This document shows, one piece after another, positions 1,012-22,936 of a stretch of DNA of 23,034 bases. How positions within the stretch are numbered: position 1 is the stretch's first letter; each line of letters begins with the position of its first letter. Position numbers and translations under genes: made by a program. Under the pieces are notes generated by a model. The model saw nothing but the letters and a program-made list of their open reading frames with translations. It was not told the origin of the DNA and did not search any database. Source of the stretch: a virus; the IMG/VR virus record IMGVR_UViG_3300024518_003559, positions 1-23,034 of that record, one strand, 5' to 3'.

Positions 1012-1230
1012 TCAGTAGAGCGGGCCAGCATCCTTTTCCGGGGCAAACGCCGCCGGTTCGTTCTTGGGCTCGACATGCGCGATCAGCGCGCGAGCCTCCT
1101 TGATCTGCCCCCGGATCATCGCCGTCTCATCGGGGGAGATCGGGTATTCATTTTGGCGCTGAAGCCCGGCGATCCTAAGATCCAGGTGCTTGCGAAGCCT
1201 GCGCCATGTGGGAGAACTGCGATCGATCAT
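1012..1230 (-). CDS. Small hypothetical protein between portal and scaffold
   Basis: This is a 72-aa protein, basic in its first half (start MIDRSSPTWRRLRKHLDLRI) and predicted mostly helical. No domain is recognised. Its ATG overlaps the portal stop codon in a TGATG arrangement, so translation is probably coupled to the portal. Small genes at this place are common in head modules of P22-like phages and have no general assigned role. A head-assembly accessory role is possible from position alone. The reading frame is short, but the coupling and the lack of any competing frame make it credible. Confidence 0.65.
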   Translation of the reverse strand: MIDRSSPTWRRLRKHLDLRIAGLQRQNEYPISPDETAMIRGQIKEARALIAHVEPKNEPAAFAPEKDAGPLY

Positions 1231-3536
1231 CAGATCGCGCCCCCAGAGCTTACGCCGGTGCGCTCCTTCATGGCGATCTCCGCCGCCATACTGCGCTCCT
1301 TGTGCGCGTTGTCATCGGCCTTGCCCGAGATCCTGGCGTCCAGCTCCTCGCGCTTCATGTTCAGGGCGGCGGCGGCCTTCTCCATCGCGGCGTCGTAGGT
1401 CCAGCCGGCAATTTCCTTGCGGGCGGCCCATTCCTGCTCGTGGAGAGCCGTCTTGTGGTCCATCTCCTCGCGGCGAAGGTCCATCTCCGCCTTCGCGAGT
1501 TCCATCTTGGCGTTCTCGATCGCGGCGGCGGGGTCTTGGCTGTCTTTCTGATCCTGCTCCCACTGCTTGTACTCGCGCTCGGTCATGGTGATCTCGTCGG
1601 TGGCGATCATGTGCGCTTTGAAGATCGCGGCCAGCAACTCCCCGTGCTTGATCCTCGGCCCATAGACAGGGTGGTCACCGAATATCTGGGCGATCATGAG
1701 GAGGTTCTGCGCCTGCATCTCACGGACCAGGAGAACGCCGGAGCCGCGCGCCTTCACCTCGTAGTCGCCCTTGATGTACTTCTTCTCGCTGAACTGCATG
1801 TTCCAGTGGTAGAACCGGCGAACCACCGGCGTGGTGATATCGTCGTCGAAGTTCTTGACGATGCGCCGGAACGTCACGTTCGCATTGTTCATCAACAGGG
1901 CCATGCCCTGAGCAGTCTTGGTGACGCCGGTGCCCTGCTCGCCCTGCGCAATCGCAGGCTGGGCGGTCACATCGTCGACCGCCTCCTCCGCCATCGCGAT
2001 AATGTTGGCGATCTCCTGCTGGTTCGAGGGGATGTTGAAGGTCTCGAACACCTTGACGCCGGGCTGGCTGGTTGTGTCGTCCCGAAGCCATACCTTGCGC
2101 GGCTGGAGCGTCCAGTTGCCGTCCTCTGGCTCGACCGCGGTCTTGTTGATGACAATCTGCGGGCCGGTGGATAGGCCGGAGTTGTCCATCATCATCCGGT
2201 AGGCGCCATTGATGATCGCCTGGGGGTGGCGCATGATCGAGGGAATACCAAAGCCGAACGGCGTCGCCTCGTCGGCCCGGATCGTGAAGACGCTGTAGAT
2301 GGTCTCCTTGCTGTCGAGCGGGTGGCGCCCAAAACTCAGCAGCTTGCCGTCGCAGAACCAGACCCGAACATGGTGCTCCTCGATCGGGTCCAAATCCTCC
2401 ATCGGCGCCGTGTCTTCAGGATCTCGCATCTCCTCAATGAGCATCTGCATGTCTTCAGTCTCGACCGGGCCGGTGTACTCCCAGACCTGGTAGGTCGCGG
2501 GGATGGTTCCGTCAGTCTGGCCGGTCAGGTCGTGCAGATCGGTGATATAGGCCGGGATAGTCCCAAGCGATGGGTCGTTCCTCAAGAGCTCGCGCACCGC
2601 GTCCTTGTCGATGTCCGGGCGCTTGGCGAGTTTGCGGAGCATGGTCTTGCTCATCAGGTGCCGCTCGAAGCATCCGCTGCCGTCCTGTACCTTCGGAACA
2701 TCCGGATCAGGGAAGAAGCTCCACGGGTCCACACGGTAGGCGCTCGGCGCCGTCTCCTTTGCGTTCCCCAGCTCGTATCCATCGCCTTCCGCGGCCTTCA
2801 CCCATACCTGCTTGCCGGCGCTGGAGCCGATCACCGGCCCCTTGATGACGCCCATGCCCAGCTTGGTCGCATCGCCGATCACGTCGCGGGCCTGGGATTG
2901 GTAGTCGCAACCCACAAATTGATCTTCGATCTCGTCTCGCATCAGGTCACTGCGGCGGGATGCCTCGCGAATCTTCTCCTGGAGGTCGTCTGCCGCCGCC
3001 TGGGCCATGTTCTGCTCGGTCTCTGCCGCCCGCATCTCCTGCTCGGATGCCTGGGCGGCGTTGGCGTCACCGGCGGCCATCTGCTCCTGGCCTTGGGCCT
3101 GGGCGGCGTTGGCGCGATCTCGCGCCTCATCCACCTGAGACAGCGCCGCCTCCGCCGCATCGGTAAGGTCTGGAACCGGCGTCGGACCAATGCTCCAGTT
3201 GCGGTCATCGGTCGGGAACTGCAAATCCCACAGCCGCGCCTCCATGGCGTCGGTCTTCGCCGCGGTCAGGTTGATGAACACCTTAGAGCCCTTGGAGAGC
3301 TTCAGGCGCTCCAGCGTCTCGCGGTCGTAGATGCCGTGGTACTGCTGCAAGTCTTCGATCCACCGCTGCTCGATGGAGTATCGCTTGCCGACGCGGCGCG
3401 TAGCCTCCGCAGCCAGACCGGCAACGAACGCGCTCATCCGCTCCTGCTTCTCCTCCTGGCGCATCTCCTCTGAGGATCTGTCATCCATTTGGTCTTGCGG
3501 ATCGCGGTCATATGCACCTGGGTCGTTTAGTGGCAT
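1230..3536 (-). CDS. Phage portal protein, P22-like type
   Basis: This 768-aa protein would form the dodecameric portal at the unique head vertex through which DNA is packaged and ejected. Length and layout fit the P22-like (podoviral) portal family. The N-terminal part (about residues 35-120) includes a tract YHGIYDRETLERL and SKVFINLTAAK, typical of the start of the portal core. An Ala/Gln/Glu-rich coiled coil at about 128-195 interrupts it, and the core continues with DPWSFFPDP and the GFGIPSIMRHPQ segment near residue 430. The last ~110 residues are a charged coiled coil, as in barrel-forming portals. It begins directly at the end of the terminase nuclease frame (shared base at 3536) and is followed by a coupled small gene. 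Identity as a portal is solid. The Ala-rich insertion is longer than I would expect, which is only a visual judgement. Confidence 0.9.
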   Translation of the reverse strand: MPLNDPGAYDRDPQDQMDDRSSEEMRQEEKQERMSAFVAGLAAEATRRVGKRYSIEQRWIEDLQQYHGIYDRETLERLKLSKGSKVFINLTAAKTDAMEARLWDLQFPTDDRNWSIGPTPVPDLTDAAEAALSQVDEARDRANAAQAQGQEQMAAGDANAAQASEQEMRAAETEQNMAQAAADDLQEKIREASRRSDLMRDEIEDQFVGCDYQSQARDVIGDATKLGMGVIKGPVIGSSAGKQVWVKAAEGDGYELGNAKETAPSAYRVDPWSFFPDPDVPKVQDGSGCFERHLMSKTMLRKLAKRPDIDKDAVRELLRNDPSLGTIPAYITDLHDLTGQTDGTIPATYQVWEYTGPVETEDMQMLIEEMRDPEDTAPMEDLDPIEEHHVRVWFCDGKLLSFGRHPLDSKETIYSVFTIRADEATPFGFGIPSIMRHPQAIINGAYRMMMDNSGLSTGPQIVINKTAVEPEDGNWTLQPRKVWLRDDTTSQPGVKVFETFNIPSNQQEIANIIAMAEEAVDDVTAQPAIAQGEQGTGVTKTAQGMALLMNNANVTFRRIVKNFDDDITTPVVRRFYHWNMQFSEKKYIKGDYEVKARGSGVLLVREMQAQNLLMIAQIFGDHPVYGPRIKHGELLAAIFKAHMIATDEITMTEREYKQWEQDQKDSQDPAAAIENAKMELAKAEMDLRREEMDHKTALHEQEWAARKEIAGWTYDAAMEKAAAALNMKREELDARISGKADDNAHKERSMAAEIAMKERTGVSSGGAI

Positions 3537-4312
3537 TAGTATCCAGCCCTTTCATCGACCACCGGCACCGCGCTGTTCGTCGGGCGGCTGGGAGGTTTGA
3601 CCTTGCCGATCTGCCCGAAGGTCATCACGGCGTAGCGGAGAGCGTCCATGAGGTGGTCGAACTTCTTGACCACCTTGCCTTTTTCGTTCCGGCGATAGAG
3701 CCGGTATTCTGACTTCGTGTTCACAAGCGTGGTGAACAGCTTCAGGCGCCCGGTCTCAAGCCTGGACCAGACCTCGTACAGACCCTCGTCCACCGCGTTG
3801 ACGGCGGGGACCAGGTGTAGACCCAGAGTGGCGTAGGTGACGAAAAGCTGCTTTCCCTCGTCCTGGCTCCGGCTCCGGCTGGCGGGGTCGATCGCCCCCC
3901 TTATCCAATCGCCCCTCGCCTTGATCGACAAGGTGTGGACAGCCGGGATCGCCTCTCCCTTGTAGTGCTCTGCGTAGGCGTAGAGGGTGCCGTCAGCCGG
4001 ATCTTCTGCAAGCCAGATCGCCGCCGTCTTGTTCCATCCGACATCAAAGCCGTAGCCTCGGCGCCAGAAGGCCGGGATCGGGAAGGGATCAACCGATACC
4101 TCCTCGATCGAGATTGGATAGATCGCGCCCGCACCCATCGACGGGATGCCCTTTGACCGGGCCTCCTTGAGGTGGGGCGGCGTTGACGAGAGCAGATCAT
4201 CCTTGGCGGCCTTGGTCAGGTGCGGGACATCATCCCAGCCCATCATGACACAATATTTGCTCGCCGATATTCTGCCCATCATCTCCCTCTGAATAGTTGC
4301 CCGCGCCAGCAT
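3536..4312 (-). CDS. Terminase large subunit, C-terminal nuclease part (separate frame)
   Basis: This 258-aa protein carries the RNase H-fold nuclease of a phage large terminase (Terminase_6C type), which cuts concatemeric DNA during headful packaging. Metal-binding candidates are D90 in YGFDVGWN, D142 in GAIDPAS and D219/D223 in FDHLMDALRY. The family segment VMMGWDDVPHL lies at residues 22-32 and ARSKGIP at 51-57. There is no Walker motif: the ATPase part is the separate frame 5061-5897, upstream in transcription. The first ~18 residues (MLARATIQREMM...) do not resemble the family and probably derive from the inserted segment. The same frame is open upstream of this ATG only to a TAA near 4401, so it cannot be joined to the ATPase part by simple read-through. 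The portal start abuts its stop. Whether the two parts act as a two-chain terminase or are joined by RNA splicing is unknown. Confidence 0.85.
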   Translation of the reverse strand: MLARATIQREMMGRISASKYCVMMGWDDVPHLTKAAKDDLLSSTPPHLKEARSKGIPSMGAGAIYPISIEEVSVDPFPIPAFWRRGYGFDVGWNKTAAIWLAEDPADGTLYAYAEHYKGEAIPAVHTLSIKARGDWIRGAIDPASRSRSQDEGKQLFVTYATLGLHLVPAVNAVDEGLYEVWSRLETGRLKLFTTLVNTKSEYRLYRRNEKGKVVKKFDHLMDALRYAVMTFGQIGKVKPPSRPTNSAVPVVDERAGY

Positions 4313-4348
4313 TCGACCGTTATGAACAAGTCTGCCGGAGGCCGTTAA

Positions 4349-4398
4349 CGCGCCCGCTGGGCGCGCATGTCCGGTGATAGAGGGGGGCGGGCGGCCCC
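4349..4398 (-). terminator. Two GC hairpins in the gap after the 208-aa gene
   Basis: Downstream of the 208-aa gene, on its strand, come GGGGC-CGCCC-GCCCC (4384-4398) and a perfect 7-bp hairpin CGCGCCC-AGC-GGGCGCG (4349-4365) followed by TTAACGG. There is no real U tract, so termination would be weak or factor-dependent. The hairpins lie between the inserted gene and the start of the terminase nuclease part and may attenuate transcription or limit translation into it. Alternatively they are the remains of the element that split the terminase gene. Confidence 0.35.
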
Positions 4399-4430
4399 TT
4401 TACGTTGAGGTCCAGCAGACGTTCGATGGC

Positions 4431-5057
4431 TTAGGCGTAGCCGACAAGCTCGATGAGGAACCGGCCAGCGGTGTAGGTGGCTGCGGTCGTGCCGCCGCCC
4501 GTCAGGTAAAGGTACTCATCGGCAGCGGGGACCGCTGCCAGCGGACCCACGAGGCCGAGGGTATGCGTGCCGCCGTTCAGCAGTAGGGTCTCATCCAGGG
4601 CGCTGATCGCAGTGTCCTCGACGCCCGTAGCCTCGACGGCGGAATACAGGTTGATATCCACGTCGCCGGTGGCCGGGGCTTCGAGGCAGGTCATGGTGCC
4701 GCCGAGGAGGGTTCCGTTGCGAGCCGCCGTGATCTGGCCGAGGTGGGCGACGCCCACGCCGTCCACGCCGATGATGTCGTCAACTCCAGCGCTGGAGTTG
4801 AGCCCGGTCAGGTCGAGCAGGATCTTGGTCGTGACCAGATCGCCGTCGCGCTTGACACTGGTCTTGACCAGCGTGCCGGTGCCTGCGGTGATGCCGACAC
4901 CAGCGGTTGTGGCGAGGGTCGCTTCGAACGCCTCCAGTGAGGCGCTGAAATCGTCGAAGTTCACAAACACGTCCTGGCCGCGGTGGGCGCCGGACACATG
5001 GTCACCATCAATGAGACGGGCGCCGGGGTTGAGGCGGGTATAGTTCTTCATGGACAT
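4431..5057 (-). CDS. Putative virion (decoration-like) protein inserted within terminase gene
   Basis: This 208-aa protein (start MSMKNYTRLNPGARLIDGDH) is rich in G, A, T, V and D, with few Lys and Cys, and predicted mainly beta. It has no nuclease, maturase or intein signature. The composition resembles phage head-decoration or other capsid-surface proteins, but no family is recognised with certainty. It starts 3 bases after the stop of the terminase ATPase part, with a good Shine-Dalgarno (AAGAGGAGA) that itself encodes the last residues of that part. It is followed by two GC hairpins and then by the terminase nuclease part. Its place between the two halves of one enzyme suggests a cargo gene gained by insertion. 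The structural role is inference from composition and module. Confidence 0.6.
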   Translation of the reverse strand: MSMKNYTRLNPGARLIDGDHVSGAHRGQDVFVNFDDFSASLEAFEATLATTAGVGITAGTGTLVKTSVKRDGDLVTTKILLDLTGLNSSAGVDDIIGVDGVGVAHLGQITAARNGTLLGGTMTCLEAPATGDVDINLYSAVEATGVEDTAISALDETLLLNGGTHTLGLVGPLAAVPAADEYLYLTGGGTTAATYTAGRFLIELVGYA

Positions 5058-5060
5058 AGG

Positions 5061-5897
5061 CTAGTCTCCTCTTGGGTCGCTGGGTTCTTCCAGCTCGTTG
5101 GGCAGGAAGCCCATGACGACCTCGCTGATGCCCTCCAGAGGGGTGAAGGTCAGCATGACGATGCCGTTGGTGGTGGCGGTGCGGATCAGGCACTCGCCAT
5201 AAACGTCTTCGGGTGGCTCCTCGTCGAGCCAGATTCCGTGCTTGGCGGTGCCCTCGAACGATCCACGCCCCTGTTGGTAGGACTTGATCCCGAGAACCGA
5301 CCAGCCGCCTGATGTGTGCTTGACCTTGATCGTATCGACCAGATCGGAAACCCCCTGCTTCCAAGTCAGGCCGCCGAGTTCCTTGCCGGGGATGATCCCG
5401 GTGCCGTCCAGGTGCTTGCGACCGCCCTCGGTTGTGATCCCGCCGAGCAGCGTCGCCTGCACGATATCGCGCGTGGTCTCGTTGGTCTTGCCCGCCGCCC
5501 ACCAGCTTACCGGGTCTTTGAATCTGCGGCCTTCCCACCAGTGTGGGTATTTGCCGGTCAGGTGCGCGGCTGTCTCAAATCCACCGGCGCCGAATGTCTT
5601 GCCGACTCGATTCGCCGCCATGACGCAGCGCTCGCGGTACTCCGCCCCGGCCTTGAAGAACTCCAGGTGCTTGGCGTACTTATGCCGAGAGTGGATTATC
5701 GTGCCGTCAAGGAGCCTGCGGTCCTCGTCCGGGTATATCATCCCGAATATGCGCTGCTTGTTGCGTCGCTCACACCGCGCCATCGCCTCGGCGAACTTGT
5801 CAACATCGGATCGGGCTGGCCCGTTACTCTGGCTCAAGAAGTCTCTCTGGGAGGATGACGCCCAAGCGGTCGGCAAGGCGGCGGGTGTGTGCCTCAA
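5061..5897 (-). CDS. Terminase large subunit, N-terminal ATPase part (separate frame)
   Basis: This frame of up to 278 aa holds the packaging-motor ATPase. Walker A is AANRVGKT (94-101), Walker B is GIWLDEE (221-227) and the coupling motif is LTFTPLEG (249-256). The WWEGRRF stretch near 120 is also typical of this family. It ends at residue 278, shortly after motif III, in EEPSDPRGD, where whole family members run on into the nuclease domain. That domain is found in the separate frame 3536-4312. The first codon of the longest version is TTG inside the small-subunit gene (74-base overlap). The only in-frame ATG near the N-terminus is at 5783 (MARCERR), and residues before it still look like coding sequence. 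The ATPase centre looks intact, so the protein could still work if the nuclease part is supplied in trans. Confidence 0.85.
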   Translation of the reverse strand: MRHTPAALPTAWASSSQRDFLSQSNGPARSDVDKFAEAMARCERRNKQRIFGMIYPDEDRRLLDGTIIHSRHKYAKHLEFFKAGAEYRERCVMAANRVGKTFGAGGFETAAHLTGKYPHWWEGRRFKDPVSWWAAGKTNETTRDIVQATLLGGITTEGGRKHLDGTGIIPGKELGGLTWKQGVSDLVDTIKVKHTSGGWSVLGIKSYQQGRGSFEGTAKHGIWLDEEPPEDVYGECLIRTATTNGIVMLTFTPLEGISEVVMGFLPNELEEPSDPRGD

Positions 5898-6396
5898 GTT
5901 CCGCGTCGGTCATGTGCTCCGTGTCGGTGGTGGTGGTAAGGTCGATCGCCGTCCGGTCGCCGTAGAAGTCAGGCCGAAGGTTTCCAGCCGCCCACTTCCG
6001 GGCGTCGATCCGAACCTTGGACCGCGCAACGAACTCTCGGTCGAGTTCTTCGTAGGTGCTGCCGTCAGGCCGGGTCTTCGTCACAGTGTCGCCGCTTGTG
6101 TCGTCGGCAATCTCGATGATCTCCTCGGCCATGAAGTCGGCTTGAGCCATCTTGGCCGCCCGATATGCGTCCGTCACCGGCCCGCTGCCGCCCTCCTGGT
6201 GCAACCAAGACAGGAACGTGCTCCGGGGTGGGGTGTCCTTGATCCCAGGCGCGCAGATGACCGCAACGCTGTCGGCGCTCGACGCGATCCGCTCGCAAAC
6301 GCGCTTGATCTTCTTCTCGCGGTCGATGGCCGCCAGAGCTGCCTTTGTTGGCCCCTTGCTTTTCGCCTTCGGCTTGGTGGTCTTCTTCTGCGCCAT
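5824..6396 (-). CDS. Terminase small subunit
   Basis: The protein is 190 aa from the chosen ATG at 6396 (MAQKKTTKPKAKSKG). An upstream frame continuation exists, but it would overlap the lipoprotein gene. The Lys-rich N-terminus is followed by a helical DNA-binding region with the stretch STFLSWLHQEG (an HTH-like helix pair typical of this small-terminase type), an AKMAQADFMAEEIIEIADD segment, and the ARKWAAGNLRP motif near the end. Those last two are characteristic of small subunits paired with this large terminase. It would recognise the packaging start site and load the large subunit. Its end overlaps the longest form of the large-subunit frame. No strong Shine-Dalgarno is visible, and it starts 4 bases after the lipoprotein stop, so coupling is likely. 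Confidence 0.8.
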   Translation of the reverse strand: MAQKKTTKPKAKSKGPTKAALAAIDREKKIKRVCERIASSADSVAVICAPGIKDTPPRSTFLSWLHQEGGSGPVTDAYRAAKMAQADFMAEEIIEIADDTSGDTVTKTRPDGSTYEELDREFVARSKVRIDARKWAAGNLRPDFYGDRTAIDLTTTTDTEHMTDAELEAHTRRLADRLGVILPERLLEPE

Positions 6397-6400
6397 CGGA

Positions 6401-6733
6401 TTAGGCCGGGCTGCCGGCTGGCTCAACCTCGTCATCCTGCCAGCCATCACCAACCGCCATGACGCAGGACACACCGTTCGGATAGGTGCTGATGATAGTC
6501 CAGCTTCCAGTCGCCTCCGAGGCCCAGACCTCAACGATCGAGGAGCCGTTCACCCCGACGCCGCGCCGAGCTTCGCCGTATTTATTTCCGAGGTTGGCGA
6601 TAACCGCATCGCGCTCCCCGCAAATCATTTGCGCCTGAGCCACGCCATCAGGCAGATGACCAGCGGTGGCAATGCCCTGACACCCGCCCACCAGCATGAC
6701 CGCGGCAAGCATGGAAATGATGTGATTTATCAT
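6401..6733 (-). CDS. Small secreted lipoprotein-like protein
   Basis: The protein is 110 aa. It begins MINHIISMLAAVMLVGGCQG, a short hydrophobic signal with a lipobox-like LVGGC, so Cys18 would be lipidated after signal peptidase II cleavage. The mature part has a second and a third Cys and the segment VEVWASEATGSWTII. This pattern is known from small proteins of unknown function in Rhodobacterales-type phages and genomes. The start at 6733 is favoured by AGGGAG eight bases upstream and by an ATGA overlap with the Cys-rich gene before it. A cell-envelope role (superinfection exclusion or lysis-related) is possible but not shown. It is not proline-rich like typical Rz1 spanins. Confidence 0.65.
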   Translation of the reverse strand: MINHIISMLAAVMLVGGCQGIATAGHLPDGVAQAQMICGERDAVIANLGNKYGEARRGVGVNGSSIVEVWASEATGSWTIISTYPNGVSCVMAVGDGWQDDEVEPAGSPA

Positions 6734-7037: not shown

Positions 7038-7113
7038 TGGTCGCAGGAGAGGGATTCGAACCCCCGATCTTCAGGCGATGAACCCAACGAGATGACCGCT
7101 TCTCCACCCTGCT
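7038..7113 (-). tRNA. tRNA with CAT anticodon, initiator-like (fMet)
   Basis: The leftward strand folds as a cloverleaf. The acceptor is AGCAGGG / TCCTGCG with an A1xG72 mismatch. The D arm is GAGA...TCTC with A11-T24. The anticodon arm is TTGGG-TTCATCG-CCTGA. The T arm is GGGGG-TTCGAAT-CCCTC. The discriminator is A, and CCA is encoded at 7038-7040. An unpaired 1-72 position, A11-T24 and a G-rich anticodon stem are hallmarks of bacterial initiator tRNA. Oddities are the pyrimidine (C) at position 37 and a G-T pair at 29-41 in place of the third G-C pair. An elongator Met or a tRNA-Ile2 (CAT modified) is the alternative. It sits between the NusG-like gene and the late leftward genes; the rest of this 270-base gap shows no gene. 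Confidence 0.8.
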
Positions 7114-16547: not shown

Positions 16548-17663
16548 ATGGTAGAGACCGCAACGGCGCAGGATCTGAAGCCGGCAGAGTTGAGCGCCAG
16601 CCAGGTGTCCTTGGTCATGCGGACGGTGGCGTCCGACTGCGACCCGGCCAACTATCAAGACCCGGCGCTCAAGAAGATGGCGACGGGGGACTTCAACCTG
16701 TTCATGGAGGCGTGCAAGAACTACCGGCTCGACCCGTTCCGTAAGCAAATCCTCCCGCTCGTGTTCAGCAAAAACAAGGTGACGAAGCGGAAGATGTCGA
16801 TCGTCGTCACCCGCGATGGCCTGCGGGTGGTCGCACAGCGGTGCGGCGACTACCGCCCGGCCAGCCAGAAGGCCGAGATCGATTATTGCTCTGATGGGGC
16901 CGGGCCGCTCAACCCCAAGGGCATCGTCTCTATCACGGTATACCTGTGGAAGCAGGACAACCGGGGCGAGTGGTTCCCCGTCGTTGGTGAAGCGCATTGG
17001 GACGAGTTCGCGCCCATCACCGAAAAGTGGGCCGAGAACGAGCACAAGAAGTGGGCGCCAACCGGGGAGAAGGCCCTGGACAGCGGCGGCAATTGGGCGA
17101 AGATGCCAATCGTCATGTTGACCAAGTGTGCCGAGGCTCAGGCGCTGCGCGCAGGATGGCCCGACCACTTCTCCGGCCTCTATGTCGAGGAGGAGATGGA
17201 TCGCGCGTCAGCCATCGACGCAACCGAGGTGGTGGCGCAGGCGGAGGAGGCGGAGCGCTTGGCCAAGGTTGGCGGTGCCGCCGTTATTACCATCACCTTT
17301 GGCGATGGCTGGGCTCTCGAAACTATTCCCATCGGCGAGATGGCCGATCGCTGCATGGAGTTCATCGAGAAAAGCACCCCCGAGACGGTCGAGCGCTGGA
17401 TGAAGGCCAACCGGGAACCGCTGCTCCAGTTTTGGGCGCGGGCGAAGGGCGATGCTCTGGCTGTAAAGGCGGCAGTAGAGAAGAAGATGGCCGAGAAGCC
17501 GAAGCAGGTGGAAAAGCCGGTGGAGGCGTCCACCGCGCCGGATGCACAAGATGCAGCCACAAGGCCGCTGAACCAGCGCGACGATCCGACCGGTGAGTTT
17601 CGCCGTGACCTCGGTCTTGACCAGGAGCGTGACTGGAACGATTCCAGAGACGGCCAGCGCTGA
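16548..17663 (+). CDS. RecT/Bet-family single-strand annealing protein
   Basis: This is a 371-aa protein. Residues about 20-215 are a RecT/Bet domain: DFNLFMEACKNYRLDPFRKQ, ILPLVFSKN, MSIVVTRDGLRVVAQRCGDY, KGIVSITVYLW, VGEAHWDEFAPI and MPIVMLTKCAEAQALRAGWP are the ordered conserved segments. The C-terminal third is hydrophilic and ends in the acidic/basic sequence RDLGLDQERDWNDSRDG. Such proteins coat single-stranded DNA and anneal complementary strands in phage recombination. No exonuclease partner (YqaJ or lambda Exo type) is next to it. Gp157 precedes it, and a 180-aa protein follows with a TGATG junction. Confidence 0.85.
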   Translation: MVETATAQDLKPAELSASQVSLVMRTVASDCDPANYQDPALKKMATGDFNLFMEACKNYRLDPFRKQILPLVFSKNKVTKRKMSIVVTRDGLRVVAQRCGDYRPASQKAEIDYCSDGAGPLNPKGIVSITVYLWKQDNRGEWFPVVGEAHWDEFAPITEKWAENEHKKWAPTGEKALDSGGNWAKMPIVMLTKCAEAQALRAGWPDHFSGLYVEEEMDRASAIDATEVVAQAEEAERLAKVGGAAVITITFGDGWALETIPIGEMADRCMEFIEKSTPETVERWMKANREPLLQFWARAKGDALAVKAAVEKKMAEKPKQVEKPVEASTAPDAQDAATRPLNQRDDPTGEFRRDLGLDQERDWNDSRDGQR

Positions 17664-21961: not shown

Positions 21962-22936
21962 TCACATTTCCGCCAACAGCGGCGCATCGTCATAAATCCG
22001 TGCGTCGGCCATCTCAGCATATTCCGGATTTAGCTCGATCAGCGTGGCGTTGCGCTGCAAGCGATCAGCCACAAGGCCAGTGGTGCCAGCGCCGCCGAAC
22101 GGATCCAGCACATTGCCGCCAGCAGGACAGCCGGCGAGAATGCACGGCTCTATGAGCGCGGGCGGGAATGTTGCAAAGTGTGCTTGGGAAAAGGGTTGCG
22201 TGGCTACCGTCCAGACTGAGCGGCGGTTGCGGGTTTCCTTGCCTGCCGTCCGACTGTCCACGCCAGCCGCCTGCCACGCAACGCCGTCTTTTTCACCGAC
22301 GCCAGAGACGCCGCGCAGGATGCCCAAGTCACCGGGATACGCAGCAGGCTCCGCTATCGCCTTGGCGTCGAAATAATAGCGCTGCGATTTCGACAGCAGG
22401 AAAATATACTCATGCGCCTTGGTGCAGCGGTCGGTCACGCTTTCCGGCATCGGGTTGGGCTTGGCCCAAATGATGTCCTGGCGGAGATACCAGCCGTCGG
22501 CCTGTAGGGCGAAGGCGACGCGCCAAGGGATGCCGATCAGGTCTTTGGGCTTCACCACGCCGCCAGGTTTGATGGTGCCGCGAATTGAGCCCTTGTGTGT
22601 GGTCTGCTTTGCTCCCGCTTTGTTGCTTGGCGCATCCGGGGAAAAACCACCGCCGCCCGCGTAGCTATCCCCCAAGTTCAGCCACACCGTCCCATCATCC
22701 CGCAGCGCCCGGCGAACCTCGCGGAACACCTTGACAAGCTCGGCCACGAACTCGTCGGGGGTGGGCTCTAGGCCGATCTGTCCGTCAACGCCGTAATCCC
22801 GCAGCCCAAAGTAGGGCGGGCTGGTAACGCATGTGTGGAAGTGGCCAGCCGGAAGCGTCGGCAGCACGTCGCGGCAGTCGCCTATGATGATGTTGCGTGA
22901 GATTTTAACGCTCCGTTCAGGTTGAATAAATTGCAT
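21962..22936 (-). CDS. DNA methyltransferase, b-class (N6-adenine or N4-cytosine)
   Basis: This is a 324-aa protein. Motif IV is TSPPYFGLRDYG (38-49) and comes before motif I, NVLDPFGGAGTTGLVADRL (275-293), the beta-class order. Further typical segments are IGDCRDVLPTLPAG (18-31), LNLGDSYAGGG (87-97) and KPNPMPESVTDRCTKAHEYI (159-178). SPPY is compatible with m4C or m6A. Such solitary phage methyltransferases protect the phage genome from host restriction or modify regulation. No restriction endonuclease gene is visible in the window. The ATG has no strong ribosome site, so it may be translated by coupling to a gene beyond the edge. Downstream are the small-gene cluster and its leaders. Confidence 0.8.
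   Translation of the reverse strand: MQFIQPERSVKISRNIIIGDCRDVLPTLPAGHFHTCVTSPPYFGLRDYGVDGQIGLEPTPDEFVAELVKVFREVRRALRDDGTVWLNLGDSYAGGGGFSPDAPSNKAGAKQTTHKGSIRGTIKPGGVVKPKDLIGIPWRVAFALQADGWYLRQDIIWAKPNPMPESVTDRCTKAHEYIFLLSKSQRYYFDAKAIAEPAAYPGDLGILRGVSGVGEKDGVAWQAAGVDSRTAGKETRNRRSVWTVATQPFSQAHFATFPPALIEPCILAGCPAGGNVLDPFGGAGTTGLVADRLQRNATLIELNPEYAEMADARIYDDAPLLAEM

Follow-up and report, generated by a model that had tools for sequence, protein, structure and literature searches.

The window, by which we mean the whole stretch of DNA analysed here, is a 23,034-bp virus fragment whose minus strand carries, in order, a small terminase gene (TerS), the ATPase part of a large terminase (TerL), a 208-aa ORF, a TerL nuclease ORF and a portal-like gene. 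TerS is of the Sf6 type (PF20901, E=4e-23; maximal ORF 5824..6534) and lies directly upstream of the first TerL chain, which occupies 5061..5897 (PF03237, E=1e-15) and contains Walker A, Walker B and the coupling motif. This chain ends with a TAG at 5063-5061, about 12 residues past the conserved FLP motif; its ORF overlaps the 3' end of TerS, so its precise start is uncertain. The 208-aa gene (4431..5057) begins with an ATG 3 nt past the ATPase stop codon, with AGGAG 8 nt before it, and the context of its homologs and a structure model point to a probable capsid cement or decoration-type protein, cargo rather than a part of the motor. A non-coding stretch follows (4280..4430, without significant structure or an intron), and then the second TerL chain (3536..4279; phrog_5653, E=2e-20; PF17289, E=6e-4), made up of about 45 ATPase-domain residues, corresponding to the last strand and helices of that domain, and a complete RNase H-like nuclease domain. 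Its ORF is open from ATG 4312. Translation probably starts at ATG 4279 instead, because GAGG lies 6 nt upstream of this codon and the resulting N-terminus, MGRISASKYCVMMGWDD, matches the MPAVSASKYLVQAGWDD-type starts of relatives. The portal-like gene, a putative head-tail connector (1230..3536; phrog_332, E=7e-35), lies directly downstream and is joined to the nuclease chain by a stop/start overlap. Upstream of TerS there is a tRNA gene at window positions 7041-7113 (from L003:3945-4017), and one lies in a similar place in L017 (3500-3573).

Both catalytic parts of a P22/Sf6-type TerL are present. In a profile search the nuclease part matched 4DKW, the structure of the nuclease domain of P22 TerL (E=2e-32). 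The two Walker motifs, the TFTP coupling motif and the acidic residues of the nuclease are all intact and vary little or not at all among relatives: the ASCE ATPase of this terminase type is recognised by PF03237 and by invariant NRxGK, DEE and TFTP columns, and the RNase H-like nuclease by invariant D79, D131, D208 and D212 (A1 numbering). The original prediction had read the frame 5061-5897 as holding the two Walker motifs and the coupling motif and then stopping, and the frame 3536-4312 as holding the nuclease aspartates; both readings stand, with the first stop falling soon after FLP and the second start likely at 4279. The two domains do not share one polypeptide, however, but lie in separate ORFs with their own stop and start. 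Judged by dN/dS values well below 1, purifying selection acts on both TerL halves.

The same arrangement was found, with very few mismatches, in two further contigs from other metagenomes. Two stretches were compared with the first contig (6,000 and 4,312 bases), and each had one mismatch; the two further contigs differ from each other at 5 of 10,303 bases. An assembly error is thus very unlikely, and the split is real and not peculiar to the window contig. A sequencing or assembly artefact, which had been named as one way in which the prediction could fail, is contradicted by the agreement of three contigs and by the split throughout the clade. That the terminase is broken or decaying, in a defective phage or through such an error, is extremely improbable: frameshifts do occur beside HNH insertions in a few other loci (L078, L208), but the three contigs agree on the split arrangement, catalytic residues are intact and both halves are under purifying selection across a clade that conserves the split, and isolate prophages carry it too.

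Relatives were collected by scanning viral contigs and species genomes with the two TerL halves, giving at least about 190 usable loci; having been gathered with split-protein queries, the counts apply to the matches listed and are not population frequencies. A search for the same split in related phages had been proposed, and among the matches listed all 38 members of the clade of P22/Sf6-type large terminases closest to the window have it, isolate prophages included, with -8 to 6,138 bp between ATPase stop and nuclease start. The split clade includes prophages in the genomes of Aminobacter aganoensis DSM 7051 (interval of 1,798 bp), Fulvimarina endophytica (8 bp), Metarhizobium album (304 bp), Novosphingobium sp. 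(1,333 bp), Azospirillum agricola, A. cavernae and Sphingopyxis flava. With a profile of one-ORF relatives, each of eight isolate bacterial genomes gave exactly one ATPase piece, which reaches profile position 227-235, and exactly one nuclease piece, which begins at 232-233. A joined gene of this TerL family was found in none of the eight; in one, the ATPase match has an internal TAA. In a quick maximum-likelihood tree the window falls within a supported group of 28 loci, all of them split (SH-aLRT 97); two of the 35 clade members tested fall elsewhere. Other split lineages are scattered among one-ORF relatives, with at least 17 state changes in both quick trees (Fitch and tree counts), 6 of them forced by well-supported branches, a number that does not separate fission from re-fusion.

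To place the break, the structure of a one-ORF relative was modelled (mean pLDDT 89) and this model was aligned to terminases of known structure, with TFTP (window residues 250-253) at model residues 209-212 and the conserved Trp at 243 as anchors. Chain 1 of the window aligns to about model residue 225, plus a short tail, and chain 2 from about 229, so that the break falls in the loop after the coupling motif, at residues ~226-235 of the one-ORF relative. Residues 23-278 of the model correspond to the crystallised ATPase domain of P74-26, and the match to the nuclease crystals of P22, SPP1 and G20c starts at 276-279; on this model, therefore, the break is inside the ATPase domain, about 45-50 residues upstream of the ATPase/nuclease boundary. 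Aligning the protein parts to whole terminases, as had been recommended, did map the junction, but not to the domain linker at which the original prediction had put it. The ATPase-domain segment left on the nuclease chain, about 45-50 residues long, comprises a strand (236-241) and two helices (251-260 and 263-271). Among split phages, the ATPase-derived first ~40 residues of chain 2 have a mean pairwise identity of 64%, against 61% for its nuclease, as expected if this segment docks on chain 1. The isolated P22 nuclease domain folds by itself (4DKW). As the break lies inside the ATPase domain, chain 2 would complete the ATPase fold of chain 1, and we infer that the nuclease stays attached to the motor in this way.

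The second chain begins at a fixed place. Counting from the conserved Trp, that of the WDDVPHL motif, a start codon lies exactly at -14 or -9 codons in 37 of the 38 clade members and in 42 of 46 other split loci, and at these positions in only 2 of 85 one-ORF relatives (all among the matches listed). The -14 position predominates in the window clade and -9 in the other split loci, which suggests separate events. This fixed start-codon position is the main evidence and is far stronger than a weak Shine-Dalgarno test, in which a good ribosome site preceded 14 of 38 clade nuclease starts compared with 15 of 92 one-ORF controls.

In principle, one chain could be made from two coding parts. In herpesviruses, the coding parts of the UL15 terminase gene are separated by other genes and rejoined by nuclear mRNA splicing. 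Jug phages provide a documented phage precedent, their terL being cut by group I introns and rejoined by RNA splicing (PMC12363816). RNA splicing that restores one chain had been offered as an alternative for the window, along with a search for intron folds across 4270-5070; the intron, of group I or II, would carry the 208-aa gene. Even with E values up to 1 allowed, positions 3300-6200 of the window had no Rfam intron match, and none was found in 14 loci at the gathering threshold. Only about 150 nt of the interval are non-coding; hairpins had been ascribed to the 208-aa gene along with its own ribosome site, and the site (the AGGAG) is there, but within 4275-4432 the stability of the hairpins does not exceed chance (z -0.57). 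The first half ends at a stop of its own and the second begins at its own start, at a conserved position, and the intervals hold unrelated contents and vary in size from an overlap of the ORFs to 6 kb. With these observations against it, splicing has only the slightest probability. An intein-split TerL was rejected, as neither chain matched an intein or Hint domain in Pfam; the chains end and start within a few residues of conserved motifs. With a clade-wide split, a fixed start of the second chain and no intron or intein detected, two separate polypeptides are by far the likeliest products of the locus. The two-chain packaging motor of the original prediction is thus strongly supported, by purifying selection on both halves and the lack of an intact copy of this TerL family in the eight isolate genomes as well as by the split and its conserved second start.

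The terL interval is a variable accessory-gene locus. It holds tail-fibre and beta-helix spike genes in L219, L222 and L229, Tad2-like anti-Thoeris genes in L064, L091 and L137 (PF11195, E 2e-21 to 2e-24) and HNH endonucleases in L078, L208, L219, L249 and L261, and in some split relatives it is without any gene. Tad2-like homologs were also seen outside the terL interval in other phages. In another split lineage a conserved 64-95-aa protein (..ARGIQSGTLALRIARQVDPHIRPGQRMVIAGAEFTV) is encoded between the TerL halves (L101:5789-5998, L117:5714-6001), its gene having overlapping stop/start codons on both sides; a similar ORF occurs in the interval of L261. This small protein is a candidate linker or regulator.

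The occupant in the window, the 208-aa protein, had no match in PHROGs, Pfam, PDB sequences or the isolate-phage collection. In other contigs (L011, L034) homologs of its gene come right after the major capsid gene, whereas in the window it sits in the terL interval and not beside a major capsid gene. The protein was modelled with a pLDDT of 83.5, and the top structural neighbours of the model are capsid/cement chains of Pam1, GP4 and KHP40 (Z 7.2, 7.0 and 6.6, middling values below a clear threshold). A cement-like capsid protein is the probable identity. In L018 (5737-7338) the cement-like gene is present in tandem copies, and its C-terminal domain recurs in over 40 contigs with very variable N-termini. 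Among close relatives of the window phage, L017 has a homolog of the gene in the same interval, and L136 and L218 have none and yet are split, with 197 and 8 bp between the halves. The gene was therefore rejected as the cause of the split. It had been supposed that this cargo gene interrupted the terminase; the comparison goes against this, and the split is older than, and independent of, what is one of many interchangeable occupants. It is also very unlikely that the 208-aa protein joins the two terminase chains, as a linker or a third subunit. Its gene does lie between the halves, co-oriented and starting 3 nt past the ATPase stop, and L017 has a homolog there, but nearly all split relatives, close ones included, lack it, and the homologs that follow major capsid genes belong to phages unrelated at terL.

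The related HNH genes of the five lineages named above raise the question of how the split arose. In L078 and L219, duplicated copies of the nuclease start peptide, MPxITxSxYLVxAG, stand on either side of the HNH ORF, so the gene inserts right at the break site. An HNH gene may have invaded terL at the conserved AGWDD site, with the endonuclease later lost or replaced, an origin that is compatible with two chains and has precedents in mobE in nrdA of Aeh1 and mobA in gene 60 of T4 (PMC2988022). No homing endonuclease gene lies between the TerL halves in the window, however, and most split loci are likewise without one; in L219 the HNH gene clearly entered an already split gene, so these genes may exploit splits rather than make them. 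HNH invasion is a plausible origin, to which we give somewhat less than an even chance. In two loci (L078:301-1080 and L208:1914-2630) the nuclease gene has a frameshift right after MAGW beside the HNH gene, as if mis-repaired at an endonuclease target.

Whatever its trigger, the locus very probably encodes a naturally two-chain P22/Sf6-type large terminase that stems from an old fission and has a permissive accessory interval. The fission would have cut terL after the coupling motif, some 45-50 residues before the true ATPase/nuclease boundary, leaving most of the ATPase as chain 1. Chain 2, with its own conserved start codon, would carry the last ATPase strand and the lid-side helices fused to the nuclease. 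Association of the chains would complete the ATPase fold in trans and tether the nuclease to a working motor, and the interval would then have become a permissive landing site for accessory genes, the cement-like gene in the window phage being one.

The single-chain TerL proteins of P22, Sf6, LUZ24 and the EBPR podovirus are homologous over both halves, with the same motifs and the same TerS-TerL-portal neighbourhood, but each is one ORF, whereas the window has two genes with the break inside the ATPase domain. A terL in two ORFs is known from Arthrobacter cluster AY phages, Microbacterium phage vB_MoxS-R1 and Gordonia phage Nyceirae (PMC11920828, PMC9030533). As in the window, ATPase and nuclease parts are divided between the ORFs there; these cases were described as genes in succession or as a putative frameshift, with no cargo interval and no clade-wide analysis. 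The cluster AY TerL was not recognisably found with the queries used here. Closer is podovirus ct2G2228 (MW202785.1, Manatee Spring), a complete circular genome in GenBank from another split lineage of the same TerL family, in which two CDS 133 bp apart are both called large terminase protein; it has no cargo gene, and the split was annotated without remark. In T4-like phages, genes in pieces (Aeh1 nrdA/mobE, T4 gene 60/mobA, Aeromonas phage 25 gene 43) give enzymes that stay active (PMC2988022). There, too, an essential enzyme is cut into two chains; those chains assemble into a working enzyme, as the TerL chains would here, judging by the conserved interface-side segment and the purifying selection. 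Some relatives of the window phage also have an HNH gene at the break, but the enzyme is a different one and the interval here mostly holds virion or anti-defence genes, the endonuclease usually being absent. Literature searches returned only brief mentions of split TerL, and no publication was found that describes a TerL cut inside the ATPase domain as a stable trait of a whole clade, with exchangeable accessory genes in the interval.

TerL, a marker gene by which tailed phages are recognised and classified, is usually taken to be one chain. The split explains fragmentary terminase calls, such as PHROG families with only one half, and searches for variable receptor-binding, capsid and anti-defence genes can be directed predictably to the interval. 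A stable fission that recurs at one position within the ATPase domain is also a natural experiment on the contacts that the motor needs, and it gives separately expressible ATPase and nuclease chains. We see about an even chance that the pentameric packaging motor consists of five heterodimers with a two-polypeptide ATPase domain, and that the interval serves as a protected docking site for adhesins, cement and anti-Thoeris Tad2. Bolder still, and speculative, is the idea that immune systems which sense TerL, such as Avs proteins, recognise the split form differently. Elsewhere in the window, judged by eye only, the ORF at 16548-17663 reads like a RecT/Bet-type annealing protein and that at 21962-22936 like a DNA methyltransferase (TSPPYFGLRDYG motif).
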